Below, piece after piece: positions 7,720 through 26,330 of a stretch of DNA of 26,965 nucleotides. Each line of letters begins with the position of its first letter. Position 1 is the first letter of the stretch. Source of the DNA: a virus; the IMG/VR virus record IMGVR_UViG_3300002231_000649, positions 15,247-42,211 of that record; one strand, written 5' to 3'. The translations under genes and the position numbers were made by a program. The notes under the pieces are model-generated. The model made no database searches. It was not told the DNA's origin and saw nothing but the letters and a program-made list of their open reading frames with translations.

Positions 7720-8434
7720 TTTCGCAACCTTCTGTTATTCCGGCGATGCTCACAGGTTGCACCATCCTGGACAATTACAAAAGCAAGTTGATAGTAACAA
7801 TTATCCATTCGATAATGTAATAATAGTCTATCAAGATTTAGTGCCGGGTGATTATGAACTTGAAGACATTAACTATCCGATTATTAGAATGCCTATCTCA
7901 GATTTTGACAGATTGTTAACTCATTTTGATATTAACCTAACAGGACAATATCAATCATCAACTGATAAGCATCATAATTGGAAACATCATGTAATCAATC
8001 ACTTGGCAGCAATCTTAGCTACTGGTGCTGATTATATTGTTTTTGCTGACAATGATTGTTGGATGGTTAATCAGCCGGAAGGATTATCTTGGGTGCAAGC
8101 CGGCATTGATATACTGAGAGAAAATCCTCACGTTTTTATTGTATCGCCTAATGACGGTGAAGAAGCAAGGCTTACACAGCGAATGAGTCAACAAATGTTT
8201 CTGGTTAATGTTGATAATTTCAGAAGTATGGATTTTAATCAACCGGGCTTTGATTTTGAAGTAACTAATCATCCTGAAATGCCTGAGTACCATGCTATGC
8301 TTGAGGGGAGAATACATTATCATTGCGTGACTGCAAATAGATTTAGATATGTGTTGCCTCCTGAATATCGCTATTGGCATCATAACCGATTAACTAAAGA
8401 AGGATTATTTGAAGTTGACTACTCAAAATATTAA
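7709..8434 (+). CDS. Glycosyltransferase-like protein with DND motif
   Basis: The 241-residue product starts with VDFATFCYSGDAHRLHHPGQ, then FDNVIIVYQDL, a GT-A style first strand. The acidic motif is DND at residues 114-116 (YIVFADNDCWMV), in the position of the DxD that binds the metal and sugar nucleotide. The C-terminal half is rich in His (HYHCVTANRFRY; YRYWHHNRL). AGGAG lies just before the ATG, which overlaps the previous gene by 11 bases. I read it as a transferase of the same pathway, but it is more diverged than its neighbours and the family is less sure. Confidence 0.55.
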   Translation: MKVDFATFCYSGDAHRLHHPGQLQKQVDSNNYPFDNVIIVYQDLVPGDYELEDINYPIIRMPISDFDRLLTHFDINLTGQYQSSTDKHHNWKHHVINHLAAILATGADYIVFADNDCWMVNQPEGLSWVQAGIDILRENPHVFIVSPNDGEEARLTQRMSQQMFLVNVDNFRSMDFNQPGFDFEVTNHPEMPEYHAMLEGRIHYHCVTANRFRYVLPPEYRYWHHNRLTKEGLFEVDYSKY

Positions 8435-9287
8435 AGTTCTAATAACCGGCGCAACCGGCTTACTTGGTAAACATCTACTAGAGGTCATTCCAAACTCAAT
8501 CGGCACTTGGTTCACTAATTCACATTTCTCAAAGCCACTTTACCAAATGGATATTAGCAATAAATCACAATGCAGATATGTAATAGACATTGTTAAGCCA
8601 AATGTAATTATCCATTGTGCCGGCATAGGTAGTGTTGAATATGCCGAAACTCATTATACTGAAGTATCAAATATTAATGTTGATGCTACAAAGAACTTGC
8701 ATAAAATTGCAAGAGATTATAAAGCTCAGTTTGTGTACATTTCAAGCAATGCGGTTTTTGATGGTGATAATCCTCCATACTCAGAAACATCAAAACGTGA
8801 CCCGGTTAATTGCTATGGGAAGATTAAAAAACGCGCAGAGCAAGAGGTAATGGCCGGCAGAGATTGGCTTGTTATTCGTCCGTTTATGCTATACGGTTAT
8901 CCGTATCCGCAAGGTAGAAAGAACTGGTATAATCTGGTATATCATAAATTGATTAGTCAAGAGCAAGTAAAGTTAGTCAATGATGTTTATTGGCAACCAA
9001 CAAGTGTAATGGACGCTGCAAAAGTTATCTGGAAATTGATACAAGAATCTGAGACAGAACAGGTGTATAATATTGCGCCGGATAAAAAGCCGATGACTCT
9101 ATATAAATTTGGTCGAAAAGTTGCTAAATGTTGGGGATTGAATAAGGACTTACTTGAGCCGGTATCAAGTGATTACTTTGAGAGTATCGCCAAACGTCCA
9201 ATCAATACTCAATATGATGTGAGTAAGATTACTGAGATGGGAATTAAAATGATGACGGTTAAGGAAGGATTAAAGGCGATGCAATGA
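8409..9287 (+). CDS. NAD(P)-dependent sugar reductase/epimerase, RmlD-like
   Basis: This is an extended short-chain dehydrogenase of 292 residues, closest in layout to dTDP-4-dehydrorhamnose reductase. The nucleotide-binding loop is TGATGLLG at 13-20. The active site has Ser in YISSN near 110-114 and YxxxK at Y136/K140. VFDGDNPPYSE just after the Ser is typical of RmlD. The likely role is making a 6-deoxy sugar nucleotide for the surrounding transferases; the exact substrate is open. The start is TTG at 8409 with GAAGG at 8399-8403, inside the previous gene by 26 bases. It ends with an ATGA overlap into the next frame. The rest of a rhamnose pathway (RmlABC) is not in the window. Confidence 0.75.
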   Translation: MKLTTQNIKVLITGATGLLGKHLLEVIPNSIGTWFTNSHFSKPLYQMDISNKSQCRYVIDIVKPNVIIHCAGIGSVEYAETHYTEVSNINVDATKNLHKIARDYKAQFVYISSNAVFDGDNPPYSETSKRDPVNCYGKIKKRAEQEVMAGRDWLVIRPFMLYGYPYPQGRKNWYNLVYHKLISQEQVKLVNDVYWQPTSVMDAAKVIWKLIQESETEQVYNIAPDKKPMTLYKFGRKVAKCWGLNKDLLEPVSSDYFESIAKRPINTQYDVSKITEMGIKMMTVKEGLKAMQ

Positions 9288-10188
9288 CATATCCAATATC
9301 AGACTTGTGTCTTCATCAAAAACAACTATCAAGGCGCTTTTTGCCTTTGGGAAAGTATGGCGAGTTTATTGCCTTTTGTCTCAGAGTTTATCGTAATGGA
9401 CTTGGGAAGCACTGACGGCACACTCGAAACATTGCAAGACATTGCTCGTTATAATCCAAAAGTACAACTTATCCAACGTGATGACGTTTCCATTTCAAGA
9501 TGCAAATGTTTTTGCAGTATTGGCAAATGATTTAATCAGAATGTGTAAATATGATAATGTGCTTTATTATCAAGCCGATGAGATATGGCATCAAAAGTTG
9601 CTTTACCAAATGGAACTAAAATTTCAACAAGGTGAATTTGATTTGTCATTCTGGCGGGTTCAATTCCGTGATAACTTTCAACAGCTTAAATGGTTTCCGC
9701 ATATAGTACATCGGTGTGGTCCAAAGGATGATTTTAACTTTGTCGGCGACGGTATGAACTCAGATCGGTATATGGATGCAAAGCTGTGCTATAATGAATA
9801 TAGCGGTGGATGGTTTACCCGGTGGGGGGCAGAGTTTGATTTTGGCGGTAACGCTAAACCTGATGCACGAAAAGAAGATACTCCCGACAAGATGCCGATT
9901 TATGAAATGATAACAGACATTTCTTTAGTCGGCGGGTTTAGAGATAATATCATTCAGCGCAGAGGCTTTCATGCCCCATTATGGCATGAAGAAAGTACTA
10001 TCGAAAATCAACCGGCTGATATTTGGTTTATAAACGCTTTGAATAATGCAGATTGGATTAAAAAAGAAAGTCCATTTGATTTACCACATATTCTTAAAGG
10101 ATTAGTTGGCGAGACAAAATATTATTTACGTCCTGAATTGTTGGAAGCATTAAGGGTAGATGAAACAAGAGGACTATTAGGGATATGA
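9284..10188 (+). pseudogene. Glycosyltransferase family 2-like gene broken by two +1 frame changes
   Basis: The ATG at 9284 overlaps the previous stop as ATGA and reads MTYPISDL. The recognisable GT2 start then continues one frame over from about 9309 (VFIKNNYQGAFCLWESMASL, then FIVMDLGSTDGT). A second +1 change near 9487-9490 moves to the frame that runs to 10188, containing YYQADEIWH (the DxD equivalent) and SPFDLPHILKGLVGETKY. Removing T9308 and one T of 9487-9489 restores a single protein of about 300 residues. It is the paralog of the intact gene at 6946. The breaks are either real decay or assembly insertions. They do not sit at stop codons, so programmed shifting is unlikely. Confidence 0.7.
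9442..10188 (+). CDS. Open C-terminal fragment of the broken glycosyltransferase
   Basis: This is the longest uninterrupted part of the broken gene, 248 codons from an ATG that is probably not a real start: the first 15 or so residues are out of frame relative to the family, and the true sequence resumes near FQDANVFAVLANDLIRM. It holds the acidic QADEIWH motif and the C-terminal signature shared with the gene at 6946. It lacks the N-terminal nucleotide-binding strand, so on its own it is unlikely to be active. It ends in an ATGA overlap with the zinc ribbon gene. Confidence 0.55.
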   Translation: MLVIIQKYNLSNVMTFPFQDANVFAVLANDLIRMCKYDNVLYYQADEIWHQKLLYQMELKFQQGEFDLSFWRVQFRDNFQQLKWFPHIVHRCGPKDDFNFVGDGMNSDRYMDAKLCYNEYSGGWFTRWGAEFDFGGNAKPDARKEDTPDKMPIYEMITDISLVGGFRDNIIQRRGFHAPLWHEESTIENQPADIWFINALNNADWIKKESPFDLPHILKGLVGETKYYLRPELLEALRVDETRGLLGI

Positions 10189-10397
10189 GTATGATGACTT
10201 GCGGATATTGCGAAACTCAAAATCGAAAAGATAACCAATGCTGTATAGCTTGTGGTGGATCGTTGGTTGATGAGATTTCTCGGAAAGCAAACCCTGGAAC
10301 TCACTCAAAATCACCGGTTTCGCGTTCGGGAATTAGACAAATGTTTGGCCTAACTGTTAATGAAGCTCACGATTCATTAAGACAGGTCTTTGGATGA
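10185..10397 (+). CDS. Small zinc ribbon protein
   Basis: The 70-residue product has a CGYC pair at residues 6-9 and a second pair in CCIACGG at 19-25, spaced like a one-zinc ribbon (C6, C9, C20, C23). The remainder is polar, with FGLTVNEAHDSLRQVFG at the end. It overlaps both neighbours by four bases (ATGA), so it is translated as part of the cassette. No enzyme motif is seen. A protein- or nucleic-acid-binding adaptor is possible, but the role is unknown. A second start, ATG at 10191, is equally usable. Confidence 0.6.
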   Translation: MSMMTCGYCETQNRKDNQCCIACGGSLVDEISRKANPGTHSKSPVSRSGIRQMFGLTVNEAHDSLRQVFG

Positions 10398-10699
10398 TCC
10401 GACTAATCTTAGCCATACTCGCAACATACCGCTTAAGCCAATTAGTAGCCTGGGACAATGGGCCAGGCTTTATATTCTATAAACTCAGAAGTTGGACTAA
10501 ATTTCAATATGACACACAATCAGGCGCATGGGAAAATGTGGATGAAGCAATCAATTGTCCATATTGTTTAGGCGTTTGGTTCGCGGCACTGACAATGATA
10601 CTTTACAAATTGCCATCAAGAGTAGGTGACTTTTTCTTATTATGGCTTGGTATAGCGGGAGGCCAGGCTTTTTTACAAGGTATTACGAAGGGAAGATAA
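10394..10699 (+). CDS. DUF1360-like small membrane protein
   Basis: This 101-residue protein has three hydrophobic segments (about 2-18, 60-72 and 80-97) and the signature CPYCLGVWFAAL at 55-66, preceded by an early TYRLSQL motif. Both are hallmarks of DUF1360, found in phages and sporulating bacteria with no settled function. It sits in the membrane by prediction. ATGA overlap with the zinc ribbon gene places it in the same transcript. Why a membrane protein lies in this cassette is unclear. Anchoring or handling a lipid-linked sugar is only a guess. Confidence 0.65.
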   Translation: MIRLILAILATYRLSQLVAWDNGPGFIFYKLRSWTKFQYDTQSGAWENVDEAINCPYCLGVWFAALTMILYKLPSRVGDFFLLWLGIAGGQAFLQGITKGR

Positions 10700-10700
10700 A

Positions 10701-10739
10701 ATGAAATTCACACTACCGAAACTTAAAAAGCTAAATTGA
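10701..10739 (+). CDS. 12-residue micro-ORF, coupled to the methyltransferase start
   Basis: ATG 10701 follows a purine-rich GAAGGGAAG and encodes MKFTLPKLKKLN, ending at TGA 10737-10739. Its stop overlaps the TTG start (10736) of the next gene as TTGA. Such a frame could act as a re-initiation device for the methyltransferase, or be a cationic peptide. It is too short to test by composition. Confidence 0.35.
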   Translation: MKFTLPKLKKLN

Positions 10740-11197
10740 GCAAATCACTTACAATGGGTGACATCGGTCATCCGTTGATGGACACTTATTACAATTGGTA
10801 TTCTATGCTGACACAACACGAGAATCCATACTACAGATTATTCTATCTGATTGCTAAGGAATTTAAGCCGGGTTTTGTGGTCGAACTCGGTTCTTATCGT
10901 GCCGGTGGGTCTGGGCATTTTGCAATCGGTAATCCTAACACATTAGTTGCAACAGTGGATTGGCATAAAGATATGCCGCAACAAGCGGATGATAAAGCCG
11001 CCTGCTTGAAACATGCCAGAATGATACCTAATTTATTTTATATCAATAAATGCTCAATTGATATGTTTGATGGTTATGAGTGCGCTTTTGAAGATATTAA
11101 GGCACACAATAAACCAATTGATATTTTATTTATTGATGCCTGGCATGATGAAAAATATGTTAAACGAGAATGGGGAATTATACTCACCATTATTTAG
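10736..11197 (+). CDS. Class I methyltransferase-like protein, N-terminal part
   Basis: This is a SAM-dependent methyltransferase of the Methyltransf_24/CmcI-like type. The SAM-binding loop is FVVELGSYRAGGSGHF near residues 47-62, and IDILFIDAWHDEKYV near 131-145 is the acidic post-strand motif of the family. The frame ends at 11197 in ILTII after it has already lost register: from 11173 the -1 frame continues GNYTHHYLADEALVICDDVL, which is the expected next part. A missing G in the run 11172-11175 would join the two. TTG at 10736 is the best start. The substrate is probably a sugar or glycan of the pathway. Confidence 0.6.
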   Translation: MSKSLTMGDIGHPLMDTYYNWYSMLTQHENPYYRLFYLIAKEFKPGFVVELGSYRAGGSGHFAIGNPNTLVATVDWHKDMPQQADDKAACLKHARMIPNLFYINKCSIDMFDGYECAFEDIKAHNKPIDILFIDAWHDEKYVKREWGIILTII

Positions 11198-11436
11198 CGG
11201 ATGAAGCACTTGTAATCTGCGATGATGTACTTAATAATGCTGGTGCTTTTGATCGAATGGTCGAATGGTGGGATAGTTTTAAGTATCAGAAGTTTTTGAA
11301 TAAAGAAGTGCATCCTGGAATTCCGATGGGGTTTATGAAATATGAGAGACGAAAGACTGCGGCAAGCCAAATTAGTACGGCACAAAAAAAGACGCAAGCA
11401 AAGAAACCTAGAACTACAAAAGCAAAAAAATCTTAG
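11170..11436 (+). CDS. Class I methyltransferase-like protein, C-terminal part (other frame)
   Basis: The 88 codons read from ATG 11170 are the C-terminal half of the methyltransferase begun at 10736: HYLADEALVICDDVL matches the last strand pair of the fold, and HPGIPMGFMKYE ends the domain. A Lys/Ala/Thr-rich tail of about 30 residues follows (KKTQAKKPRTTKAKKS). The ATG lies inside the preceding frame and is probably incidental. As it stands the fragment has no SAM-binding loop. Confidence 0.55.
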   Translation: MGNYTHHYLADEALVICDDVLNNAGAFDRMVEWWDSFKYQKFLNKEVHPGIPMGFMKYERRKTAASQISTAQKKTQAKKPRTTKAKKS

Positions 11437-11447
11437 AGCTTGAATGA

Positions 11448-12026
11448 ATGGCAGAAGGCGTAAAATTGAACGAATCCATTCTTAAACAATGGCAAGCACA
11501 AGCATTAGGTATGAAGCCCTATCATAATAAGAACTTCCCCCCTTCACCCTATTACCGATTTCTTAAAATCCTTGCTCAAAACATACACCCAAGACTGTCA
11601 ATTGAATTAGGCGTATGTGGCGGCGGTGGAAGCTTGCATTTAGCTATGGGCTGGCAGCAAGGCATTGTGGTGGGAGTTGATAATCAGGACGATCATAGAG
11701 AGAATATCAATTACATCCTGAACAAGTATCAGAACTTTAGATTTTGGATAGGTGATAGTGTAAATGATGCCCGATCAATTGCGGACTATCACGGCAAGGT
11801 TGACATACTCTTTATTGATACGGTTCATACTTATGAGCGTACAATGTTAGAGTACGAGACTTGGCTTGAATTTATGGCAGATGATTATATAATTTGCTTT
11901 GATGATTTATTTAGACCAGGAATGTCTCAATTATGGAGTGAGTTGCCTAATCCCAAATTGAGACTTGATTATTTGCACGATGGCGCTGGGAATGGTGGGG
12001 GATTTGGGGTAATTTGGAATGGTTGA
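11448..12026 (+). CDS. Class I methyltransferase-like protein, intact
   Basis: The 192 residues form a complete small methyltransferase related to its upstream neighbour. The SAM loop is LSIELGVCGGGGSLHL at 50-65. VVGVDNQDDH near 73-84 carries the acidic residue that binds the ribose, and VDILFIDTVHTYERTMLEYE follows near 123-142. DYIICFDDLFRPG is the post-SAM strand. The substrate is not evident; O-methylation of a sugar fits the neighbours. Only a weak Shine-Dalgarno is seen, 11 bases separate it from the previous stop, and its end overlaps the next gene by eight bases. Confidence 0.65.
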   Translation: MAEGVKLNESILKQWQAQALGMKPYHNKNFPPSPYYRFLKILAQNIHPRLSIELGVCGGGGSLHLAMGWQQGIVVGVDNQDDHRENINYILNKYQNFRFWIGDSVNDARSIADYHGKVDILFIDTVHTYERTMLEYETWLEFMADDYIICFDDLFRPGMSQLWSELPNPKLRLDYLHDGAGNGGGFGVIWNG

Positions 12027-13767
12027 TGTCAGTATTGTAACCGGCTCTTACAATAGAATATCCTGTCTCAAAGAAATGGTTACAAGTGCCAGACAATCAT
12101 TCACAAATTGCTATGGCCTGAAACACGAATTTGTAATTGTTGACGGTAATTCACAAGATGGCACACAAGATTGGTGTAATTCTCAAGATGACATTAGGCT
12201 TATTCAGCATATTAGTCTTTTGGGTGCTGTTAAGGCTTTTAATGACGGCGCTTATGCTGCAAATGGTCAATATGTCATTCTGGCTAATGATGACATTACC
12301 TTTGTCGGAGAGAGTATATTATTAGCCTGGGTATATATGCAAGAGAATAAATCTTGCGGCATAGGTTGCTTTTATCAGGATAGAAATAATAGAGATTGGC
12401 ACATAGAAGAAATGCCGGTTGTAATTGATAATAAACAAGCAACTGCTCCGTATGGTCAAGTGTGCATTATTCCCAAATGGCTGGGTGATCAAGTTGGATG
12501 GTGGGGAGATTATCTGCATACCTATGGCGGCGATAATGAAATATCATCAAGAGTTTATGAGCTAGGTTTTCAAGTATCCCCAATTCCCGGTGCAAAAATA
12601 CACGATCTTGAAGCCGATGATGATCTAAGAAAAATGAATAACATATCAGGGCATAAAGACCCAAGAGCAGTAGTTATACGCGGGGCAGGTCATCACCCTG
12701 ACAGCGTAGCCTGGGGTAGAAAATGGTCAAAAAAAGGATTAACAGGGCCAGTAATTAGATATGGTGCAATGGATGATATAAGCAGAAAAGAGCGAATATT
12801 ATACCTGCCAATCTATGAGCAAGGTTGGGATATTCAAAAGCAGCAAAAACGAGGACTGAGAGAAGCATTAGCTAAAGTTGCTTTAGTAATCGAATATGAT
12901 TATGTTCAAAAGTTTAGTGAATTAGGCTCAATTGGAATGTTATCAGAATTATTTGATATTTGTCATCAAATTCATCCTACTTTAATCCTCACTCAAATTC
13001 ACAATGCTGATCAAGTTGATGATGAATTTATAAGACGATTACGACAAACGAATCCAATTGCTAAAATGGTAAACTGGAATGGTGATTTTTGGCCTGATAA
13101 TCTTCTTTCAAGCAGTGGTATACAGTTGGCTAAAGCTTTTGATTGGCAATTGATAATCAATCGAGAAGTGTTGCAAAAGTATAGGGAAATGGGTGTCAAT
13201 ACTGAGTATTGGCAGATCGGTTATGAGCCAGATGGATATGGGCATAAGCCGGATGTTAATTATTATGATGTTGTTTTTTTAGCTAATGGATATTCAAAAA
13301 AGCGGCAGCAATTTGTCAAAAAGCTTAGAGAATTGAATCTTAATTTTGGCTTGTATGGGTCAGGCTGGCCTAAAGACTGGGCCGATGGTCAATGCACTTA
13401 TGATTTTATTACCGGCTGTAAAGTAATGCAAGGTAGTAAAATTTCAATAGGTGATAGCCAATGGCCGGAAACTGGCTTTGTTTCCAATCGAGTGTTTCAG
13501 GCTCTTGTTGCCGGCGGCGCGGCCCTGGCTCATCAATGGTTCAAGGATATGGATCAGCTTGGTTTGATTGATGGCGAAACTTGTATAATCTGGAAAGATT
13601 TTAATGAGCTAAAACAAAAGATTAAACATTACCTTGACAATGAAGATGAAAGAAAAGCCATAGCAGAAGCCGGACAAAAATTAGCTCTTGATCATCATTC
13701 ATTTGATAATCGAGTTATGGAATTATTTGAATTGATAAACGAGAAACAAGATCATTGGCGACTTTAG
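12019..13767 (+). CDS. Two-domain glycosyltransferase (GT2 plus CgeB-like GT-B)
   Basis: At 582 residues this is the largest gene in the cassette. The first domain, 1-230, is GT2: VSIVTGSYNRISCLKEM at 4-20, FVIVDGNSQDGTQDW at 38-52, and NDD at 90-92 (YVILANDDITF). The second domain, about 260-575, is GT-B like the gene at 6134: it carries RILYLPIYEQGWDIQ at its start, DVVFLANGYSKKRQ, LYGSGWPKDWADG and FVSNRVFQALVAGGAALAHQ near the C-terminus, the acceptor/donor cleft segment. A single polypeptide therefore could add two sugars in sequence. The donor sugars are unknown. The ATG at 12019 overlaps the previous stop by eight bases. Confidence 0.7.
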   Translation: MVDVSIVTGSYNRISCLKEMVTSARQSFTNCYGLKHEFVIVDGNSQDGTQDWCNSQDDIRLIQHISLLGAVKAFNDGAYAANGQYVILANDDITFVGESILLAWVYMQENKSCGIGCFYQDRNNRDWHIEEMPVVIDNKQATAPYGQVCIIPKWLGDQVGWWGDYLHTYGGDNEISSRVYELGFQVSPIPGAKIHDLEADDDLRKMNNISGHKDPRAVVIRGAGHHPDSVAWGRKWSKKGLTGPVIRYGAMDDISRKERILYLPIYEQGWDIQKQQKRGLREALAKVALVIEYDYVQKFSELGSIGMLSELFDICHQIHPTLILTQIHNADQVDDEFIRRLRQTNPIAKMVNWNGDFWPDNLLSSSGIQLAKAFDWQLIINREVLQKYREMGVNTEYWQIGYEPDGYGHKPDVNYYDVVFLANGYSKKRQQFVKKLRELNLNFGLYGSGWPKDWADGQCTYDFITGCKVMQGSKISIGDSQWPETGFVSNRVFQALVAGGAALAHQWFKDMDQLGLIDGETCIIWKDFNELKQKIKHYLDNEDERKAIAEAGQKLALDHHSFDNRVMELFELINEKQDHWRL

Positions 13768-13928
13768 AACTTGAAACCAAGAGATTGTTAATCTCAGTAG
13801 TTAGTAAAAATAAACAAATCGGGCATCCTGTCTATGTCGAGAAGTCGGTATTAAGACAGGTTTGGGAGATGATTTTACCTTTTTTGCTGGTAGGTTTTGG
13901 AATAGCCATAGGAGTTATTTTTGAATAA
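13755..13928 (+). CDS. Small single-pass membrane protein (57 residues)
   Basis: A TTG at 13755 opens a frame that fills the gap between the two-domain transferase and the fucose synthase and overlaps both (13 and 8 bases). The product begins LATLELETKRLLISVV, has a charged middle, and ends with one hydrophobic helix, MILPFLLVGFGIAIGVIF. The frame is open through a region with no other gene. The Shine-Dalgarno is weak, so expression would depend on coupling. No family is recognised; membrane tethering of the transferase complex is a guess. Confidence 0.5.
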   Translation: MATLELETKRLLISVVSKNKQIGHPVYVEKSVLRQVWEMILPFLLVGFGIAIGVIFE

Positions 13929-14811
13929 GATAATTGTAACTGGCGGCACTGGGTTTCTAGGCAAACATACAACAAAAGAATTACAAGACAAAGGTTATAA
14001 TCCAATCGCTCTTGGTTCAAATGATTATGATTTAACATTGCCAGTTCAAACTCAGGCAATGTTTGAAGATTTACAACCCGGTTACGTTTTTCATCTTGCT
14101 GCCTCTGTCGGTGGTATAGGCGCTAACAAAAACCATCCTGGCTCATTTTTCTATAACAATATGACTATGGGTCTTAATGTCATTCATCAAGCAATGAGGT
14201 ACAACGTTAAAAAGATTATCTTTGTTGGGACTACTTGCTCATATCCTAAATTCGCTCCTACGCCATTCAATGAGCATAGCCTTTATGACGGCTACCCGGA
14301 AGGTACAAACGCGCCATACGGCATAGCAAAAAGAGCATTACTAACGATGCTCAAAGCATATCAAGATGAGTACAATTTAAGATATGCTTATCTCATTCCT
14401 ACAAATATGTATGGGCCGGGTGACAACTTCAACCCTGAAACATCACACGTCATCCCGGCACTAATCAAGAAGTGCTTGTCAGGACAAGATGAAATAGAAG
14501 TATGGGGGACCGGCAAGGCTACGAGAGATTTTATCTATGTTTCCGATGTAGCAAAAGCATTGGTTTTAGCAATGGGAAACTATGATCGTCCTGAGCCGTT
14601 GAATATTGGTAGCAGTAATGAGATAAAAATTGATACGCTTTTACATTGGGTGATGCAAAAAACTGGTTTTTGTGGTAAAATAAAGTATGATACTTCAAAA
14701 CCAGACGGGCAACCAAGAAGAGTGTTGAATACCAAAGCGATTAAAAGTGCATTTAATTGGCAACCAGAAGTTGATTTACAAGAAGGATTACAAAAGACAA
14801 TAGATTGGTAA
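13921..14811 (+). CDS. fcl: GDP-L-fucose synthase
   Basis: This enzyme converts GDP-4-keto-6-deoxymannose to GDP-L-fucose by epimerisation and NADPH reduction. The 296-residue sequence is a clear Fcl/WcaG member: nucleotide loop GGTGFLG at 8-14, AASVGGIGANKNHPGSFFYN at 60-79, the Ser of VGTTCSYP at 107, and YxxxK at Y133/K137 in APYGIAKRAL. LIPTNMYGPGDNFNPETSHV follows. The length is slightly below the usual 310-320 residues. The start is TTG 13921 with AGGAG at 13910-13914. The GDP-mannose 4,6-dehydratase (Gmd) that makes its substrate is not in the window, so the substrate must come from the host or from elsewhere in the phage. Confidence 0.88.
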   Translation: MNKIIVTGGTGFLGKHTTKELQDKGYNPIALGSNDYDLTLPVQTQAMFEDLQPGYVFHLAASVGGIGANKNHPGSFFYNNMTMGLNVIHQAMRYNVKKIIFVGTTCSYPKFAPTPFNEHSLYDGYPEGTNAPYGIAKRALLTMLKAYQDEYNLRYAYLIPTNMYGPGDNFNPETSHVIPALIKKCLSGQDEIEVWGTGKATRDFIYVSDVAKALVLAMGNYDRPEPLNIGSSNEIKIDTLLHWVMQKTGFCGKIKYDTSKPDGQPRRVLNTKAIKSAFNWQPEVDLQEGLQKTIDW

Positions 14812-14850
14812 CAAAAAGTCAATAATTAAATAACTACAATTCGCCAGAGG

Positions 14851-14899
14851 AGCGATGATTAACATCTATCAAGGTGTTATCATCGCTTTTTTTGTTTTT
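14851..14899 (+). terminator. Intrinsic terminator-like hairpin with T-tract
   Basis: AGCGATGAT at 14851-14859 pairs with ATCATCGCT at 14879-14887, and AACA/TGTT extends the stem past one bulged T. Thirteen bases of TTTTTTTGTTTTT follow. This is a textbook rho-independent terminator downstream of the fucose synthase gene. It lies inside a possible 18-codon frame (see next entry), so it could be an attenuator controlled by translation. Confidence 0.65.
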
Positions 14900-14911
14900 G
14901 GAGGCATATGA
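14855..14911 (+). CDS. 18-residue hydrophobic micro-ORF overlapping the terminator
   Basis: ATG 14855 is preceded by AGAGGAG at 14846-14852 and encodes MINIYQGVIIAFFVFGGI, stopping at TGA 14909-14911, which overlaps the next ATG (14908) as ATGA. A ribosome on this frame would cross both arms of the hairpin. This is the layout of a leader peptide that would prevent termination, or of a tiny membrane peptide. It could equally be chance. Confidence 0.4.
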   Translation: MINIYQGVIIAFFVFGGI

Positions 14912-15690
14912 CCCAAGTTTCAATAATTACACCAGCATACATTGATACTTACGATAAACTGGACTGGTTTGAAGAAATGCTCAAATCAGTTGAAAATCAA
15001 TCTTTTACAGATTGGGAAGTTGTCATAATTGATGACAAAAGCATAATTGATTTAACTGTTCTAAATAATCAATTCAAGTCACCCAAGTTTCGATGGTTCA
15101 AAACTGCTGAAAGAAGTGGTCCGGCAACTTGTCGAAACACGGCAGTTGAATTAGCACAATCAGAAGCTATTTTACCGCTTGATGCCGATGATATATTAGC
15201 CAATGAAAATGTGCTTAATATTCTTTTTACTGAATGGTCTAATGATAAGTCTAAATTTTATTATGGCAACTTGCGACGTCTTAAAAAGATCGATGGTGAA
15301 TTTCAAAAAGATGATAAAACATTCAGGTTGGCAGAGTACACATTTAAGGACAGTCTAAATAAAAATGGACTTATGCCTGTGTCCTGCATCTTTTCTTATG
15401 ATTGTTGGCAAAAGGCTGGCGGTTGGTCAAGTGAATTAGAAGCCGGTAGAGAAGATGTTGAATTCTGGATTAAAATGGGTAAAGTTGGCTGTTGCGGGCA
15501 AAAAATAAATGAAGAGACTTTAATTTATAGACAACATGAAACATCAAGAGATTATGCATTGCGCCGTGTTAATCGACGTGAAAGCGAGATGATTAACAAA
15601 ATACGTTTAATGCACTCAGATGTTTACGAAGGGAAATATCCAATGGGGTGTTGCGGTGGTGGGAAGGGTTATATCCCCTCCCCAGAATGA
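14908..15690 (+). CDS. Glycosyltransferase family 2, end runs into a virion-type protein
   Basis: This is a canonical GT2: VSIITPAYIDTYDKLDWFEE at 4-23, WEVVIIDDKSI at 36-46, GPATCRNTAVELAQ at 71-84, and DADD at 92-95 (LPLDADDILA). GREDVEFWIKMGKVG near 180 is the late acidic motif of the family. GGAGG directly before the ATG supports the start. After residue 245 the frame enters MGCCGGGKGYIPSPE and stops at 15690; that piece looks like the start of the next protein and not like a transferase end. The next protein resumes in the +1 frame. Confidence 0.75.
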   Translation: MTQVSIITPAYIDTYDKLDWFEEMLKSVENQSFTDWEVVIIDDKSIIDLTVLNNQFKSPKFRWFKTAERSGPATCRNTAVELAQSEAILPLDADDILANENVLNILFTEWSNDKSKFYYGNLRRLKKIDGEFQKDDKTFRLAEYTFKDSLNKNGLMPVSCIFSYDCWQKAGGWSSELEAGREDVEFWIKMGKVGCCGQKINEETLIYRQHETSRDYALRRVNRRESEMINKIRLMHSDVYEGKYPMGCCGGGKGYIPSPE

Positions 15691-17743: not shown

Positions 17744-18856
17744 ATGGCAGATGAAGTTCTTGTATTAAAAGGTGAAGGTAATGTTGATGTCCAGGTTGGA
17801 GGTGCCGGCAACAATTGGGATTATCTTAGTGCTTGCGCTTCTATGAGTGGCCCAACTGTGCCGAGTGGTAGTACTGAAATCAGATGGTGTCAAGACCCGA
17901 CCAAAGCAAATGGTTTTAAGATTAGTAGTCAATTTAAGACAGCGCCAGATCAAGTGAGCGCAGATTTAATGACTAAATTGGGCAAGATTGATTATCTAAA
18001 TAATCTCAATTGTCCATTTGCTTTACGAGCGCGTTATGCCAAATGCGGCGAGAGAGAAGACCCATCAAATTATGATCCAATTATGCTTACATATTGTTCA
18101 GCGCAATTGCAAGAGCATAGCTATGATGATTTAGTTGTCACTGATCCAGGTGATCAAGATGAAATTTTAGTAACTGCACCCTGGCAAGCGTCTTATGAAT
18201 ATCGAATTAAAAAGATAACTCCGGCCCGTATAGGCACAGCAGCCTTGTTAGGCGATCAGGCCATTAACGATATTGAGTACTGTGATGAATTTACTTGTGG
18301 TGGATACTGCGGTGATGCTACTGACGGCTGCTCAGTTATTTATGGGGCTACTGACGCTGATACCACGCCATACGCAGCGCCTAATCTAATTAAAGGATTA
18401 AAGAATTCTAAAACTAATTTTATCACCTGGAGTGCTACTCCGGTTTTAGGATTAAACAATAATCTTGAAGGTGTAGAATGCGCTGGTAATAGAGTGATTG
18501 TATCAAGCAATGGTGATAGTGCTATTGCGTATTCTGATACGCCAACAGATCAAGATACCTGGAATGTAGTTGCAATTACCAATGCTCCAACTGCCAATCC
18601 TAATGCTCTTTTTGCACGGACTGCAAGAGAGACATGGCTTGGTGCTAATAATGGATTTATCTATAAATCTATAGATGGTGGAGCAACCTGGAGTGCTGTA
18701 CACCAAGCTGAAATCACCACACAAAATATCAATGCTGTCTGGGCGCATGATAAAGATTTAGCTTATGCTGTTGGCGATGCTGGCATAATTTTACGCACTA
18801 AAGACGGCGGGCAAACTTGGGAGAATGTAACCGAAACTAGCACGACCGGCGCTTAA
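17744..18856 (+). CDS. Major tail protein with beta-propeller, first part
   Basis: The N-terminal 180 residues are a tail-tube type domain (LVLKGEGNVDVQVGGAGNNW at the start; WQASYEYRIKKITPARIG near 145-162), and the position after the gp10-like gene fits the major tail protein. From about residue 210 it becomes a repeat-rich propeller: SIDGGATW near 307 and TKDGGQTW near 351 are BNR/Asp-box repeats like those of sialidases and Ycf48. The frame stops at TAA 18854-18856 after TETSTTGA, but the +1 frame carries on at once with more blades. GAGGAG before the ATG supports the start. Cys-rich patches (CDEFTCGGYCGDATDGC) lie between the two domains. Confidence 0.6.
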   Translation: MADEVLVLKGEGNVDVQVGGAGNNWDYLSACASMSGPTVPSGSTEIRWCQDPTKANGFKISSQFKTAPDQVSADLMTKLGKIDYLNNLNCPFALRARYAKCGEREDPSNYDPIMLTYCSAQLQEHSYDDLVVTDPGDQDEILVTAPWQASYEYRIKKITPARIGTAALLGDQAINDIEYCDEFTCGGYCGDATDGCSVIYGATDADTTPYAAPNLIKGLKNSKTNFITWSATPVLGLNNNLEGVECAGNRVIVSSNGDSAIAYSDTPTDQDTWNVVAITNAPTANPNALFARTARETWLGANNGFIYKSIDGGATWSAVHQAEITTQNINAVWAHDKDLAYAVGDAGIILRTKDGGQTWENVTETSTTGA

Positions 18857-18857
18857 T

Positions 18858-19268
18858 TTGCTTGTTGTGACTGTGCCGCCTGATAGGCCAAAAGATGTGT
18901 ATATTGGCACCAATGACGGTATGATTTATCGCTCTACCAATGAAGGTGGAACATTTGCTGCTACTGGTGATTTTACGGCTGTTACTTTTGATGGACAAGG
19001 CGTAGGTACTGTAGATGATTTAGCATGGTGTGGCCCTTGTGGGAGTAATGTAATGTATATTCTTCACAATGATGGCGGTCCACGCGGTAGAATCTTACGC
19101 GACTTATCAGGCGGCGCTGGTGGCGCTGACATTGAAGTTGTTTCTGATTATACACAAGTTATCCAGGCAGGCATTGATCTTAATGCTCTTGCTTGCTGTG
19201 ATGTCAATGAAGTAATTGCCGGAGGAGAACTGAACAATAGCTTCCCGGTAGTAATTAAAGTTTCTTAA
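18858..19268 (+). CDS. Propeller continuation of the major tail protein (+1 frame)
   Basis: This frame has no ribosome binding site and its TTG lies directly after the preceding stop. It encodes 136 residues that continue the BNR propeller without a gap: LLVVTVPPDRPKDVYIGTND, then IYRSTNEGGTF, a third Asp-box type repeat, and CGPCG and LACCD cysteine pairs. Skipping T18854 gives TETSTTGANLLVVTVPPD. It is either the missing C-terminus of the tail protein or a programmed +1 extension carried by only a fraction of subunits. Confidence 0.6.
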   Translation: MLVVTVPPDRPKDVYIGTNDGMIYRSTNEGGTFAATGDFTAVTFDGQGVGTVDDLAWCGPCGSNVMYILHNDGGPRGRILRDLSGGAGGADIEVVSDYTQVIQAGIDLNALACCDVNEVIAGGELNNSFPVVIKVS

Positions 19269-19847: not shown

Positions 19848-20043
19848 TCAATCCTTAAGAGAGATTTTAGCTGCTAAATGGTGGGGATGTCCTTCTATAG
19901 AATATTTTTTTAATCTCGATAAGGAAGAGCGTATTTGGATTTTGGCAGCGTATGAGGCCGATTGGCGAATTAAGGCTATAAATAATTATGAGCAACAACA
20001 GGAAGCTGAAAGAAAAGCTAAACAGGCTAGGAAAAAGCGATAA
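19819..20043 (+). CDS. Tail assembly chaperone T-like domain (overlapping frame)
   Basis: In the +1 (equivalently -2) frame relative to the G-like gene, 74 codons read MKSSGWKYNQSLREILAAKW, then WGCPSIEYFFNLDKEERIWI and a charged helical end (EAERKAKQARKKR). The WGCP-(x)n-F-N-L pattern is common in the C-terminal part of tail chaperones. No good Shine-Dalgarno precedes the TTG 19819/ATG 19822, so it is probably made as a fusion with the upstream product by frameshifting within 19822-19847. Its end overlaps the tape measure start by one base. Confidence 0.6.
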   Translation: MMKSSGWKYNQSLREILAAKWWGCPSIEYFFNLDKEERIWILAAYEADWRIKAINNYEQQQEAERKAKQARKKR

Positions 20044-23000
20044 TGGCTAATCTGCCTGAAGTTGGCTTGAATGCTGTTATTGAAAATTTAGCTAACTTTC
20101 AAAAAGGGGCTGATAGCATAGCTAAAGCCTATGATGAAATTAATGCCGGTGCTGATAGTATTGAATCTACAACAGGATTAGCTACTGGTGCTATTTCTGG
20201 ATTAGGCGGCGTTGCTGCCACTGTTGCTACTGGTGGTATGGCTTTACTTGCGGAGGCTGTTGCAGCTGTTGGCGCGGTGGCTGCTGCTACTGTTGCTGGT
20301 ATAGGCTTACTCTCTAAAGAAGCCTTTGATCTTGCCTCAGAAGTAGAAGCATCCTCTAAAAAGATACAATCCCAATTAGGTGTTACAGCAGAAGAGGCTG
20401 AAAATTTAGGAGAAGTAGCTCGTGATGTTTGGGCTAATAATTTTGCTGGTAGCGTAATTGAAGCTGCTGAGGCTCTTGTAACTGTTAGACAACAAATGAA
20501 GGGTCTTAGCAGCGAAGAATTGCAAGATGCCACTGAGAATGCGATTAGACTTAGTGATGCTTTTGGTATTGATATTGTTGAAAGTACAAATGCTGCTAAT
20601 GTCTTGATGAAAGATTTTGGTTTAAGTCAACAACAGGCATTTGATTTTATCACAGAAGGATTCCAAAGAGGATTAAATAGTTCAGATGACTTTTTAGATA
20701 GTGTATCTGAATATGGCAGTTTATTCGGTCAAGCTGGCGGTGATGCCGGACAATTTTTTAGTTTACTTGAAACTGGATTGCAGGGTGGAGTACTTGGAAC
20801 TGATAAAGCAGCAGATGCTTTCAAAGAATTCTCCATTAGAATAGTTGATGGCAGTGACACAACCGAAGATGCCCTAAATGATCTATTTCTTGCTGTTGAT
20901 GGTGTTGGTGGTGAAGTCGCAGAATTAGAAAAAGATTATGAAGACACTACAAAAGCATTGGAAGATAACGCCAAAGCCCTGGAGGAATCAGAAAGTGCTT
21001 TTGAGGCTACAAAGCAAGTGGTTGCAGCATTAGAAAAAGAATTGGGTGATGCACGGCGCGAGTTGGATGATCTATCAAGACCAAATTTGGCCGGGATGCA
21101 AGAATTTGATAATCAACTTTTTGCTTTAGAACAACAGTCAAATCAAGTAAAACTTGCTATGCTTGATATGACACCAGACAGTAAACAATTTGAAGCTGCT
21201 CAAGAGCAATTGGATGCTATCAACAAAGAAATGGACAAGGTTGCTCTTGAGCGCGATATACAATTCGAGCCTCAATTACGAGCAATTGAAAAAGCAACAG
21301 AAGATGGTACTGAGCCATTACAAACTTTTGATCAAGTAATGGCAGCTATAGGGGAAAAGAAATCAGAGATAGCAGAATTAGAAGGCGCTTTCAATTCTGC
21401 TAATGGAGAATTAAGAAGAAATGCCAAAGCGGTAAGCGCGGCAGAAACAGAACAAGAACGGCTAGTTGCTCAAATCGCATTTTTAGAAACTGCTATGGAA
21501 AATGCGTCAAGTCCTGCTCAAGAATTCTTGGATGGGTTTTTAGATGGCAGCTTAAATGGTGTAGAGGCATTTCAAAAAGTGATTGATAAATTGGGTGATG
21601 TTAAAGACCCACTTTTAAGAGATCAACTTGCTATTGAATTGTTCGGTACTCAGTTTGAAGATTTAGGGGTAGAGGCAGGATTAGCAATCGACTTAACCAA
21701 AACCTCTTTAGACGAATTATCAGGCGCAACCGAAACCCTAAACGCACAATATAACACCCTCCCCCAAGCGTTTGAAGGTGTCAAACGCCAATTACTCGTT
21801 GCAATTCAGCCGATTGGTGATGCTCTACTCAAAGCCGCTAATGAAGTAATGCCATTATTATTTGACGCCATAGAAGACTTAAAACCACAATTAGAAGATT
21901 TGGCTGTACTTATAGGTGATGCTATAACAAAAGCAGTAAAGCAATTTATCCCCTGGGTGCAGAAGAAACTTATCCCGGCACTTAAAGATATGTGGAAGTT
22001 TATTAAAAAGAACGTCATCCCAATTATTGAAGATTTGTGGGATTTATTTGTTGAATCTAAAAAAACGGGTAAAGAAGTTGAAAAGTCCTTTGAAAAAATG
22101 ATGGACGTTATCAATCCATTTATCAAAAAAACAATGGCTAACTTGCTTGATATTTGGGAGACATTAAAAAAGTGGGTTGATAAAAACTGGCCTCTAATCC
22201 AAAAAACAATAGAAACTGTAATGAATGCGATTAAAAGCGTCATTAAAAAAACAACAGCCGATATACAAAAGTTCTGGGAAAAATGGGGCGATGAGATAAT
22301 GGCCGTTGTTACATTTGTTTTTGATACTAATTTCAAAATCATCAAAGCGGTTATGGAGGATATTTTAGATATTATTACGGCTGCTATGCAAGTGATAACC
22401 GGCGATTGGGAAGGGGCATGGGAAACAATGCTTGGCATTTTAAAACGTCATACTGATTTAATGGAAAATATTATTAAATCAGGATTTAATACAATTAAAG
22501 ATGTAGGCTCTTCTATACTGGAATCAATGGCAACAAAGATTGATTCTATTTGGCAAGGTATTAAGAATTCTGCCTCTAATGCCATGAGCAATATGATTAG
22601 CGCGGTAACATCAAAAGCCAATCAGCTAAAAAACGCCTTAATTAGTGCTGTGTCCAATGCGGTATCATCATTATTAAATAGTATATCAGGCGGTGCTATT
22701 TCAAGCACATTAAGAAGTATAGGTCAACAAATAATCAATAAAATTGTTGGTGGAATTCAATCAATAGGCACTTTAGCTAGTGGTTTAATCTCAAAAGTTG
22801 CCAGTGCTGCTAGTTCATTATTTAGCAATATTGTTAGTTCTGCAAGCACTATTGGATCATTGCTAATAAATTCCGGTAAACAAATGTTAAATAAAATTGT
22901 TAACGGTATTGCTGGTAAAGTCTTTGATTTGATAGATGGGTTAGTTGGTACTGTTACTGCTGCTGTTAATAGTTTGGTAGGTAGCATTAGTGGTGGTTCA

Positions 23001-23333
23001 ATTTTATGGAAATTACTTGATGCTGGTAAAAAAGCGATAGATAAAGTGATTTCTGGATTATGGCAAAAATTCAACCAGTTAAAATCGGCTATAATCGATA
23101 TATTAATAAATGCTATAGCTGGTGCTTTTAGTTCGCTTGGTCTTGGTAGTTTATCATTTCAGCAGCAGTCTAATTTTACTGCTCCATCTCAAGTATCAGC
23201 ACCAGCATTAGGGGCAAGCAACTCAACTATTAACAACAATACTTTCAATATTGGTGGCAATAACATTTCATCCAATATGGACGCGGCAGTTTTTGAAGCA
23301 AGAGTACTGCGAGTTATCAGACAGAATTTATGA
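20043..23333 (+). CDS. Tape measure protein
   Basis: This protein is extended through the growing tail and sets its length. At 1096 residues the family rule of about 1.5 angstrom per residue predicts a tail near 160 nm. Residues 40-95 are Ala/Gly/Val-rich and hydrophobic, and 270-480 are a long acidic coiled coil (EKDYEDTTKALEDNAKALEE; LEQQSNQVKLAML). The central part has Lys/Trp-rich amphipathic helices (WVQKKLIPALKDMWKFIKKN), and the C-terminal 250 residues are Ser/Ala/Ile repeats typical of these proteins. No peptidase or lysozyme domain is obvious. The start overlaps the chaperone stop as TAATG, and the stop overlaps the next ATG as ATGA. The rank order confirms a siphovirus tail. Confidence 0.9.
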   Translation: MANLPEVGLNAVIENLANFQKGADSIAKAYDEINAGADSIESTTGLATGAISGLGGVAATVATGGMALLAEAVAAVGAVAAATVAGIGLLSKEAFDLASEVEASSKKIQSQLGVTAEEAENLGEVARDVWANNFAGSVIEAAEALVTVRQQMKGLSSEELQDATENAIRLSDAFGIDIVESTNAANVLMKDFGLSQQQAFDFITEGFQRGLNSSDDFLDSVSEYGSLFGQAGGDAGQFFSLLETGLQGGVLGTDKAADAFKEFSIRIVDGSDTTEDALNDLFLAVDGVGGEVAELEKDYEDTTKALEDNAKALEESESAFEATKQVVAALEKELGDARRELDDLSRPNLAGMQEFDNQLFALEQQSNQVKLAMLDMTPDSKQFEAAQEQLDAINKEMDKVALERDIQFEPQLRAIEKATEDGTEPLQTFDQVMAAIGEKKSEIAELEGAFNSANGELRRNAKAVSAAETEQERLVAQIAFLETAMENASSPAQEFLDGFLDGSLNGVEAFQKVIDKLGDVKDPLLRDQLAIELFGTQFEDLGVEAGLAIDLTKTSLDELSGATETLNAQYNTLPQAFEGVKRQLLVAIQPIGDALLKAANEVMPLLFDAIEDLKPQLEDLAVLIGDAITKAVKQFIPWVQKKLIPALKDMWKFIKKNVIPIIEDLWDLFVESKKTGKEVEKSFEKMMDVINPFIKKTMANLLDIWETLKKWVDKNWPLIQKTIETVMNAIKSVIKKTTADIQKFWEKWGDEIMAVVTFVFDTNFKIIKAVMEDILDIITAAMQVITGDWEGAWETMLGILKRHTDLMENIIKSGFNTIKDVGSSILESMATKIDSIWQGIKNSASNAMSNMISAVTSKANQLKNALISAVSNAVSSLLNSISGGAISSTLRSIGQQIINKIVGGIQSIGTLASGLISKVASAASSLFSNIVSSASTIGSLLINSGKQMLNKIVNGIAGKVFDLIDGLVGTVTAAVNSLVGSISGGSILWKLLDAGKKAIDKVISGLWQKFNQLKSAIIDILINAIAGAFSSLGLGSLSFQQQSNFTAPSQVSAPALGASNSTINNNTFNIGGNNISSNMDAAVFEARVLRVIRQNL

Positions 23334-24631
23334 AAAAGATTTTATTATGCTTTTTATTTTTATTTTTTACAGTCTCAGCCAATGCACAAGAGACTATTTT
23401 TTTACCGATAATCCTTAAGGATAGCAATCCTATGGCAGCAACACCAAGATTAGTCATCACAGACGGCACAACAGAGATTGATTTATTAGGTCCAGATTCA
23501 GGTTGGAAATTAGCTGATCCATACTGGAATCCTCAAATAGCATCATACAAAGGCGGTGGATCATTTGTTAATGCTCAATTGGCAGAAGGACAGAGATTAG
23601 TACATAAAGAGTATGGCAATGTTACCGAATCTATACCATTGTCTTTATCAGGACTTAATCAGAATAAGGCAATGCAAACAGCGCATGAAGCATTAGAATT
23701 ATTAAGACAAGCCGGTGATTACTGGGTTGAACCTTATGAATATGATGACGTATGGGTAGAAGCCAAATTAGCCTGTAATGATTGCTTGACAGGATACAGC
23801 CGGATTATCAAAGGCGATATACCGGAACTCACAAACCCATACGGGCAACCATTTTTTAGCTCATACGACAAGCCAGTTATGGAAGGCATCACCCTTGTTT
23901 TTGAACGTGAACCGTTTTGGCGTGGCACAAAACCGGGAACGATTATAGGACCGCTTTACAATCTAATCGACAATCCTGATTTTGAATTGTGGAATTTTGG
24001 AGTAACTGACAGTCAACCGGATAGTTGGGATGATATTGAAACCACGCATATTGTTGGACAAAATAGCAGAGATCAAGCATTGCCTAAATTTGGTAACAAT
24101 GATTTGAAAATTAGAGTATCAGGTTCCACTTTGGCCGGCGCAAGTAAAGGTGTTACTCAAGTAATAAATGATACTGATGATAGCACAGAATATACCATCA
24201 TAGCTTGGGTACGCTCAGAAGGTGTATCAAATGGCGTTGGACGCATTCTAATCACCTATTCAAATCAATTAGAATTATACCGGGAAAGTGATAGTCACGG
24301 TTGGACTCTATACACTGGTAAAATTACAACTGGTATTAGTGATGTGGTGGCTATCCATTGTGAGATTTTGACAACAGCAGCGAATACTGATGGCACTATT
24401 TATATTGATAGTTTGATGTTTATCAAAGGCGATTATGAAACAGAAGCTAAAAATGGAGTATTGCCATATCTATCAGGTAGTCACATTGTTAATAATTTAG
24501 AATTGGCAGATGATTTAGTAAAAAGTGCTGGTACTATAAATTTTCTGGATGTGTGGAATATACCCGGCAATGTTGATAGTTTAATCAGGTTGGAGTTAAC
24601 TAACAACACATCACCGGCTGACAGTACCTAA
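23330..24631 (+). CDS. Distal tail protein with signal-peptide-like N-terminus and CBM-like domain, first part
   Basis: The gene directly after the tape measure is normally the distal tail protein (Dit). Residues 35-200 (PRLVITDGTTEIDLLGPDSG; VFEREPFWRGTKPG) fit a Dit-like core. From about residue 210, LIDNPDFELWNFGV begins a jelly-roll domain resembling carbohydrate-binding modules. The first 20 residues are a signal-peptide-like sequence, MKKILLCFLFLFFTV ending SANAQ, followed by FLPIILK. A second possible start, ATG 23432, has AAGGA upstream and would give MAATPRL. The frame stops at 24629-24631 and the same protein resumes in +1. The ATGA overlap with the tape measure favours the longer start. 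Confidence 0.6.
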   Translation: MKKILLCFLFLFFTVSANAQETIFLPIILKDSNPMAATPRLVITDGTTEIDLLGPDSGWKLADPYWNPQIASYKGGGSFVNAQLAEGQRLVHKEYGNVTESIPLSLSGLNQNKAMQTAHEALELLRQAGDYWVEPYEYDDVWVEAKLACNDCLTGYSRIIKGDIPELTNPYGQPFFSSYDKPVMEGITLVFEREPFWRGTKPGTIIGPLYNLIDNPDFELWNFGVTDSQPDSWDDIETTHIVGQNSRDQALPKFGNNDLKIRVSGSTLAGASKGVTQVINDTDDSTEYTIIAWVRSEGVSNGVGRILITYSNQLELYRESDSHGWTLYTGKITTGISDVVAIHCEILTTAANTDGTIYIDSLMFIKGDYETEAKNGVLPYLSGSHIVNNLELADDLVKSAGTINFLDVWNIPGNVDSLIRLELTNNTSPADST

Positions 24632-24653
24632 TCCTGTAGAAATTTATAACAAA

Positions 24654-26330
24654 ATGAGAATTGGCTTAAGACGTACTGGCACTGTATCCAATTTTGATTA
24701 CTTTAGGAATTTTGCCGGAACTAATGATGCTACTGCCAGTGGTGGTGGATATGCCGAAACTGATAATTTAGGCACTGATAAAATAGAGGCCGGTTCTGAA
24801 ATTATAGAAGAAAATACACTTGATAACGCTGGTCGATTTAGAGCGTATGCTAGAATTTATGATCCGGCTGGTACTGCTGGTAATTTGCAAACTAGAATAG
24901 AATATTATAAAGATAATGCAGAACAATTAAAAATTCTTGACGCTGTAAAATCTAATATTGTTTCAAATTGGCAGATTGTAGATTTAACAGATAAAAAAGC
25001 TGTTATTTGGGATGCTAAATTTCAACCTAATATACCATCTCAATTTGGATACAATATTGACATGAATAGATTGACTGGCAGTGATAAAGCCAGATTAGAT
25101 TATTCTTTACTTATGCCTACTGATGGCGGATTTGTTGAGATTACCGCAAGTCCTCCATTGAATTATAAAGCACTTGTGACTGTTGACAATACAGAAGGTC
25201 AGTTATTTGTAAGTGGTATCAATAAGCCAGCGTCAAGTGGATGGGTGCAAGATGCCGAAGTGCCTGGGACTAGCACAACTTTAATACATGAATTTATTAG
25301 TTTTAGAGGACTTTTATTTGCTGTTGGAACTGATACCCCAGCAGCAGCACAAGAGCAAGTATGGCGATTAAGAGATGGAAAATGGACTAAAGTTTTTACA
25401 GGCGTTACGCCGGGAACGTTGGACGCTGCTGCAATTTATAATGGTGAGTTATTTGCTGGCGGTAGAGATGGTAGAATATTAAAATCATCAGATGGTTTAA
25501 CCTGGGGATTAGTATCAACTTCTTTTGCTGGAGATGATGATACATTTGTAATAACAGTTTATAATTCACTTTTATTTGTTGCTGTTGGTAATAATGGTTC
25601 AGATTCTAATCAAAGTGATATTTATTATTATAATGGTTCGAGTTGGACATCTGATAATCCTGGTTTATTCTTAGAAGATATGAAATCATATGCTGGCAAT
25701 CTTTATGGTGTTCAAAGTTCAATTTGGAAACGAGACAGTGCTGGTGCCTGGACAGAAGAAAAACAACTGAATGTTGATTTTAATATAACTGGAAAAAAAC
25801 TAATTGTATTCAGGGGGAAATTAGTTATATTATGTTCTGATACACTTTTTCCTTCGGTCAATAAAGGACAAGTTGTTATTTTTGATGGGTCTACTTACGA
25901 ATTAAAAGAGCCATTGTCGGAGATTGCAATTTTTCAAGATGGCATTGTTTTTAATGACAAACTTTATACCTCTACAACCAATGACGATAATGATATTATA
26001 AAAGTTTGGAGTACATCAGATTTAGAAACTTGGACATTAGAAAATCAGGTTAATGTTGCCTTTGCGAGTAGTAATAATAATTTCGGTAAAAACAAAAACA
26101 ATTTATATTTAGCTGCTGGGACTGATGCTCAAACTCAATCTTCTTCACAATCTAGTGCCGCATGGCGCGTTTTAGATTTTGAAGGAACTGGCTTTCTTGC
26201 TCCCCCAGAAAAGCGACACAGATATATCTTCTCGTATGATCGCGAGAACTTCATCAATAATATAAACGATAAAGCTTTGATTGGCATTGGTTTTGTGCCA
26301 AGATATTTAACCCTAAGAGGCAAAAACTAA
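24654..26330 (+). CDS. Continuation of the distal tail protein: propeller fibre part (+1 frame)
   Basis: The frame is open from about 24630 (NPVEIYNKMRIGLRRTG) with no ribosome binding site at ATG 24654, and the domain begun upstream continues (FRAYARIYDPAGTAG; LDYSLLMPTDGGFVEIT). From about residue 165 of this part repeated blades follow: GLLFAVGTD, IYNGELFAGGRDGRILKSSD, LFVAVGNNGSDSN, LVILCSDTLF, LYLAAGTDAQTQ. Motifs such as KSSDGLTWG and STSDLETWT recall sialidase-type Asp-boxes. A receptor-binding or sugar-binding role on the host surface is likely for such an extended baseplate protein. The end ALIGIGFVPRYLTLRGK is typical of a baseplate domain. It is read together with the previous entry as one protein of about 1000 residues. 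Confidence 0.55.
   Translation: MRIGLRRTGTVSNFDYFRNFAGTNDATASGGGYAETDNLGTDKIEAGSEIIEENTLDNAGRFRAYARIYDPAGTAGNLQTRIEYYKDNAEQLKILDAVKSNIVSNWQIVDLTDKKAVIWDAKFQPNIPSQFGYNIDMNRLTGSDKARLDYSLLMPTDGGFVEITASPPLNYKALVTVDNTEGQLFVSGINKPASSGWVQDAEVPGTSTTLIHEFISFRGLLFAVGTDTPAAAQEQVWRLRDGKWTKVFTGVTPGTLDAAAIYNGELFAGGRDGRILKSSDGLTWGLVSTSFAGDDDTFVITVYNSLLFVAVGNNGSDSNQSDIYYYNGSSWTSDNPGLFLEDMKSYAGNLYGVQSSIWKRDSAGAWTEEKQLNVDFNITGKKLIVFRGKLVILCSDTLFPSVNKGQVVIFDGSTYELKEPLSEIAIFQDGIVFNDKLYTSTTNDDNDIIKVWSTSDLETWTLENQVNVAFASSNNNFGKNKNNLYLAAGTDAQTQSSSQSSAAWRVLDFEGTGFLAPPEKRHRYIFSYDRENFINNINDKALIGIGFVPRYLTLRGKN

Follow-up and report, generated by a model that had tools for sequence, protein, structure and literature searches.

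The stretch of DNA analysed here, called the window in the following, is 26,965 nt long and covers positions 15,247 to 42,211 of the IMG/VR record IMGVR_UViG_3300002231_000649, a virus record of 53.7 kb. The features which concern us lie in its tail operon:

20043..23333, + strand: tail tape-measure protein gene (PHROG tape-measure families, best E 4e-66; PF10145)
23330..23386, + strand: Sec signal peptide MKKILLCFLFLFFTVSANA, predicted cleavage after A19 (sequence and rule-based scan; conserved in the relative L003)
23393..23419, + strand: TIFLPIILK tag of the Anaerolineae exported-protein type (TIFLPIVWK in L003; motif survey)
23416..23421, + strand: TAAGGA, Shine-Dalgarno-like, serving the internal start (duplex energy -5.9 kcal/mol)
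23432..24631, + strand: tail protein at the Dit position, in its short form which begins at the internal start as MAATP... (alignment; gap analysis)
24654..26330, + strand: C-terminal part, joined to the preceding segment in L002 and L003, where both make up one ORF of ~1000 aa
26331..26965, + strand: 5' part of the next tail/baseplate gene, which continues beyond the window end (alignment A2)

The long ORF covers 23330-24631, and the stop codon of the tape-measure gene overlaps its ATG as ATGA (23330-23333). The order tape measure, Dit-position gene, next baseplate gene is found in the window, in the two viral relatives L002 and L003 and in prophage loci, and the next tail gene is ~57% identical among the three phages (alignment A2). 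The label Dit for ORF 23330-24631 is given by position, from gene order and neighbours. The AlphaFold models were too weak to use (pLDDT 32 and 44), and the Foldseek matches are not meaningful. No match to the Dit-position protein was found among PDB profiles, no Pfam or PHROG domain was recognised in its N-terminal 433 aa, and Pfam recognised no sugar-binding domain in the gene; the long C-terminal part of the protein in relatives received no assignment.

In L002 and L003 the gene is a single ORF of ~1000 aa, long and modular. In the window it is split at 24600-24660, where a stop codon (24629-24631) ends the ORF and the frame goes on as NPVEIYNKMRIG after a shift by one base, the cause being a single-base frame change near 24627. 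The split is likely an assembly error, but it may be a programmed frameshift. Because the relatives are without the frame change, the full product of the window gene is probably also ~1000 aa. Other genes of the window show similar breaks: a single-base frame change at 18840-18870 splits a BNR/Ycf48-like tail gene (17744-19268) which is one ORF in L002 and L003, and a glycosyltransferase (9357-9530 / 9442-10188) looks broken in the same way. The gene at 17744-19268 occupies the tail-tube position and carries YCF48/BNR-type repeats (PF14870, E 1.7e-9), which is an unusual fusion. Many glycosyltransferase, epimerase/reductase and methyltransferase-like genes lie at 5388-15690, with capsid-like genes on one side and head-tail genes on the other, which is a large sugar-modifying load given the size of the phage; for an epimerase-type gene among them (13921-14811) relatives at the DNA level are found in many genomes of the HGW-Chloroflexi-10 class.

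The long form of the Dit-position protein has an N-terminus which reads MKKILLCFLFLFFTVSANAQETIFLPIILKDSNPMAATPRLVITDG... It begins with MKKILLCFLFLFFTVSANA, which after the predicted cleavage site is followed by QETIFLPIILKDSNP and then MAATP... The signal peptide consists of an MKK start, the uncharged core ILLCFLFLFFTV and an AxA-type end, S-A-N-A before Q; after the cleavage site come E, TIFLPIILK and DSNP, and then the second in-frame ATG at 23432. The TAAGGA sequence falls within the K-D codons just after the tag. The coordinates, the core length, the SANAQ end and the second start given in the original prediction are all correct. To score signal peptides we used a rule demanding a positive start, an 11-residue uncharged hydrophobic core and an [AVST]xA end. 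Among the 63 ORFs of the virus record that reach 100 aa (19 in L008, 30 in the window and 14 in L009, with small overlaps between the pieces), only ORF 23330-24631 passed it. By this rule-based prediction both the window protein (A-N-A before Q) and L003 (MRR, VLFAVLLFLLVA and S-Q-A before Q) have a Sec signal of the signal peptidase I type. The lipobox cysteine is absent at the cleavage site of the window protein, where C7 sits inside the core, and the L003 signal peptide is without any Cys.

Queries in IMG/VR found two relatives of ORF 23330-24631, L003 (58% in the best segment) and L002 (62%); further queries gave the same two again, or nothing. Among named phages neither this protein nor the product of the next tail gene has a match, and a profile of the protein has none in the genome contig collection or in 400 Chloroflexota genomes. 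L003 reads MQMRRVLFAVLLFLLVAIPSQAQGPGTTIFLPIVWKGGGMASTSDAILRITDG at its N-terminus and has the module as MRRVLFAVLLFLLVAIPSQA, cleavage, QGPGTTIFLPIVWKGGG-MASTS, that is a signal peptide, the AQ end, TIFLPI, K and then an internal Met at nearly the same distance from the tag as in the window. The tag codons are ACT ATT TTT TTA CCG ATA ATC CTT AAG in the window and ACA ATT TTT CTG CCG ATA GTC TGG AAG in L003. The module is more than chance, because the independent, ~57%-identical L003 keeps the charge, the core, the AxA end before Q and TIFLPI; the signal peptide followed by FLPIILK that had been predicted is thus borne out. A frame error creating the signal peptide and a chimeric assembly as source of the module were both considered and are ruled out, since L003 has the same module in frame.

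The gene in L002 begins MGLPNPILRFSDG, 4 nt past the tape-measure stop, and is without the module. In six prophage loci of the HGW-Chloroflexi-10 class (L257, L259, L261, L266, L268 and L272) the gene between the tape measure and the A2 homologue has its start at -4 to +3 nt relative to the tape-measure stop. Its first residues are MA-, MI-, MS- or MT-, immediately ahead of the first core strand, and its start aligns with the internal Met of the window. L261 matches the window protein family at 6.6e-10, L259 and L266 do so marginally (0.01 and 0.12), and the remaining loci were placed by gene order. The distance from the tape-measure stop to the start of the core is 98 nt in the window and 132 nt in L003; in L002 and the six prophage loci it is within 5 nt. 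The original prediction had named, as evidence against it, relatives that start at MAATP and have no frame ahead of it. Such starts are found in L002 and the prophage homologues, whereas L003 keeps the whole module, and because L003 does so the module is seen as an addition to the family rather than as spurious. By this comparison the segment looks translated and constrained in two lineages, and a third is without it. Since the relatives begin at the internal Met, near the tape-measure stop, the module appears as extra sequence before an intact, probably ancestral start; so ~100-130 bp would have been added, or kept, in front of it. The carriers are two phages only, the window phage and L003. 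With three phages compared the module may have been gained once or lost in L002, and since L002 is without it, it is dispensable.

Each of the two in-frame starts has a translation signal. In L003 these are ribosome-binding sites at both, -10.7 kcal/mol at the upstream ATG (5926) and -11.3 at the internal ATG (6037), within the best 1-1.4% of ATGs in the locus, the internal one in the best 1%. In the window TAAGGA stands before the internal ATG (23432), which its -5.9 kcal/mol with the anti-Shine-Dalgarno sequence places in the best 6% of window ATGs; the second start which had been predicted thus has its own ribosome-binding site. The first start of the window (23330) is without a good one (-2.5) and would rely on coupling to the tape-measure stop through ATGA.

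The tag was defined as [IV][FY]LP, three hydrophobic residues, K/R and N/D, located in an exported protein either at its C-terminus or after its signal peptide. IFLPIILKD of the window fits at every position; IFLPIVWKG of L003 differs from the host motif in two, with W for a hydrophobic residue and G for N/D. With a wider motif, 19 matches were found in the phylum (4 of 151 genomes) and ~199 in the HGW-Chloroflexi-10 class (73 of 199 genomes), where the reversed pattern gave 4, an enrichment of ~50-fold; the Bacteroidota control gave 5 matches versus 5 reversed. The context was recorded for 49 matches from phylum and class: 38 are C-terminal, 4 stand just behind a signal peptide, 6 are internal and 1 was unplaced. 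A signal-peptide-like N-terminus is present in 15 of the 18 ORFs with a visible start, and the host carriers of the tag are mostly surface and secreted proteins. The closest host layout is that of L172, with the tag directly behind the signal peptide (...NTVYAQEEPPNLVYLPLVLKNYP). The likeness to Chloroflexota of a signal peptide followed by FLP, as originally proposed, is therefore seen again as an Anaerolineae-type motif of exported proteins. The variant [IV][FY]LPLV[LM][KR]N is frequent at the C-terminus of exported proteins in the Chloroflexota class searched (L143-L196). A codon-restricted, insensitive pattern found no C-terminal tag in viral contigs, and a description of the exported-protein tag was not found in open-licence PMC papers.

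A host link which is independent of the tag motif comes from the next tail gene. Its A2 profile matches 18 of 396 genomes of the HGW-Chloroflexi-10 class (best E 5e-42), 1 of 168 Bacteroidota control genomes, weakly (6e-3), and 3 of 169 in the control phylum of a Clostridia genome, also weakly (best 1.4e-4). These prophage relatives strengthen the earlier hint at a Chloroflexota host. It should be noted that NCBI lists HGW-Chloroflexi-10 only as unclassified Chloroflexota, and that the assignment of its class to Anaerolineae is our reading, loosely supported by a match of the same motif in a contig named Anaerolineae (L022). In a search for CRISPR spacers the 24-38-nt matches in the 396 genomes were at about chance level, none of the seven match sites checked lies in a repeat array, and a spacer link to the host was not found. 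Taken together, the original interpretation is partly supported, in its signal peptide, its tag, its host link and its second start; a host gene as the source of the piece, in the exon-like manner proposed, would be a further prediction.

We propose a dual-start tail-tip gene in a siphophage of Anaerolineae-type Chloroflexota, in which the short form would go into the virion and the long form would be exported, and we hold this reading, made from sequence, to be somewhat better than an even bet (about 55%). The old start at 23432, served by a ribosome-binding site of its own, would give a cytoplasmic short form for the virion, as suggested by relatives which begin at that start. Between the tape-measure stop and the old start, ~100-130 bp code for a predicted export module of host style, made up of a Sec signal and an IFLPxxxK tag. 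The start at 23330, which is coupled in the window and whose L003 counterpart has a strong ribosome-binding site, would give the long form, which is predicted to be exported and cleaved before QETIFLPIILK; QGPGTTIFLPIVWK would be the matching N-terminus in L003. The exported copy, on or outside the host cell, would bind the phage's own receptor and hinder re-adsorption or superinfection, a step which by itself is speculative and to which we give rather poor odds. The same low odds apply to the full hypothesis, that a host surface-protein export tag has been grafted onto a tail-tip adhesin with the old start kept, giving a virion adhesin and an exported copy which masks the receptor or excludes kin phages, the tag being portable.

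The exported long form might instead have another role, as a surface adhesin by which the host is altered (through lysogenic conversion or aggregation) or as an aid at lysis which is secreted and binds glycans. Tags found mostly on host surface and secreted proteins, and the length and modularity of the full gene, would suit such a role, which we consider unlikely but the best of the alternatives. A little less probable is that the upstream start is little used, the segment being a coupling or leader region, so that only the product from 23432 matters. The poor upstream site of the window would agree with this, as would the L002 and prophage homologues, which manage without the segment; two diverged phages, however, keep the frame, the signal-peptide features and TIFLPI, and the upstream start of L003 has a strong site.

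It is also improbable that the likeness to the Chloroflexota tag is a coincidence, with only a signal peptide and a short beta strand behind it. The motif is short, L003 deviates from it as described, and TIFLPI[IV]xK occurs in 40 stretches of viral contigs, mostly in unrelated contexts; but among these IMG/VR stretches the peptide stands right behind a signal peptide only in L003. When GTDB species were scanned for IFLP[ILVM]{3}KN (80 loci among the matches listed), three of the four Chloroflexota matches listed (L022, L046 and L065) were at the protein end or after a signal peptide, and the other matches listed were mostly out of context: by a loose automatic rule an exported-protein context was found for 3/4 Chloroflexota matches versus 5/76 others among those listed (Fisher p 0.003). 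The host link, moreover, does not depend on the motif. Least probable of all is that the long form is the sole product and serves as the virion protein, its hydrophobic N-terminus or FLP segment being used in the particle, e.g. for membrane contact at entry: some tail proteins do interact with membranes and both phages carry the module on a tail-tip protein, but a 12-residue core with an AxA end is signal-peptide-like and short of a full membrane span, the conserved internal start with its ribosome-binding site would be pointless, and the module is absent from relatives.

Should both products exist, one structural gene would also supply an exported effector, simply through an added host-type export module, and if the hypothesis is true the module shows that the IFLPxxxK tag of Anaerolineae is portable. 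The analysis further provides a link from uncultured Anaerolineae phages to their hosts that is based on sequence, and it draws attention to a tag which is widespread on proteins exported by Anaerolineae and apparently undescribed.

Dual-start genes are found in phages, e.g. as holin/antiholin pairs, and the gene resembles them in having two in-frame starts ~100 nt apart with separate translation signals. To our knowledge the known pairs are mostly lysis or scaffold genes, and we know of no tail protein among them of which one form bears an export signal. The same short tag is found on exported proteins of Anaerolineae, in a minority of them directly behind the signal peptide, e.g. L172 (...VYAQEEPPNLVYLPLVLKN), whereas in host proteins it is mostly C-terminal. 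In lactococcal skunaviruses evolved Dits with sugar-binding insertions promote adsorption (PMC10688798). The present gene is like these in its place in the tail operon (tape measure, Dit, baseplate gene), its enlarged tail-tip protein and its siphophage setting, but they have internal carbohydrate-binding insertions (PMC10688798) and the module here is an N-terminal one for export. Surface lipoproteins of the Ltp type, from phage TP-J34 and its kin, are involved in superinfection exclusion (PMC3952083). Like Ltp, the long form is a phage-encoded protein expected, here by prediction from sequence, at the host cell surface; unlike Ltp, which has a dedicated lipoprotein gene, it would carry its export signal on a structural gene, with no lipobox. 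Speculatively, the gene would join the ideas of the evolved Dit and of Ltp.
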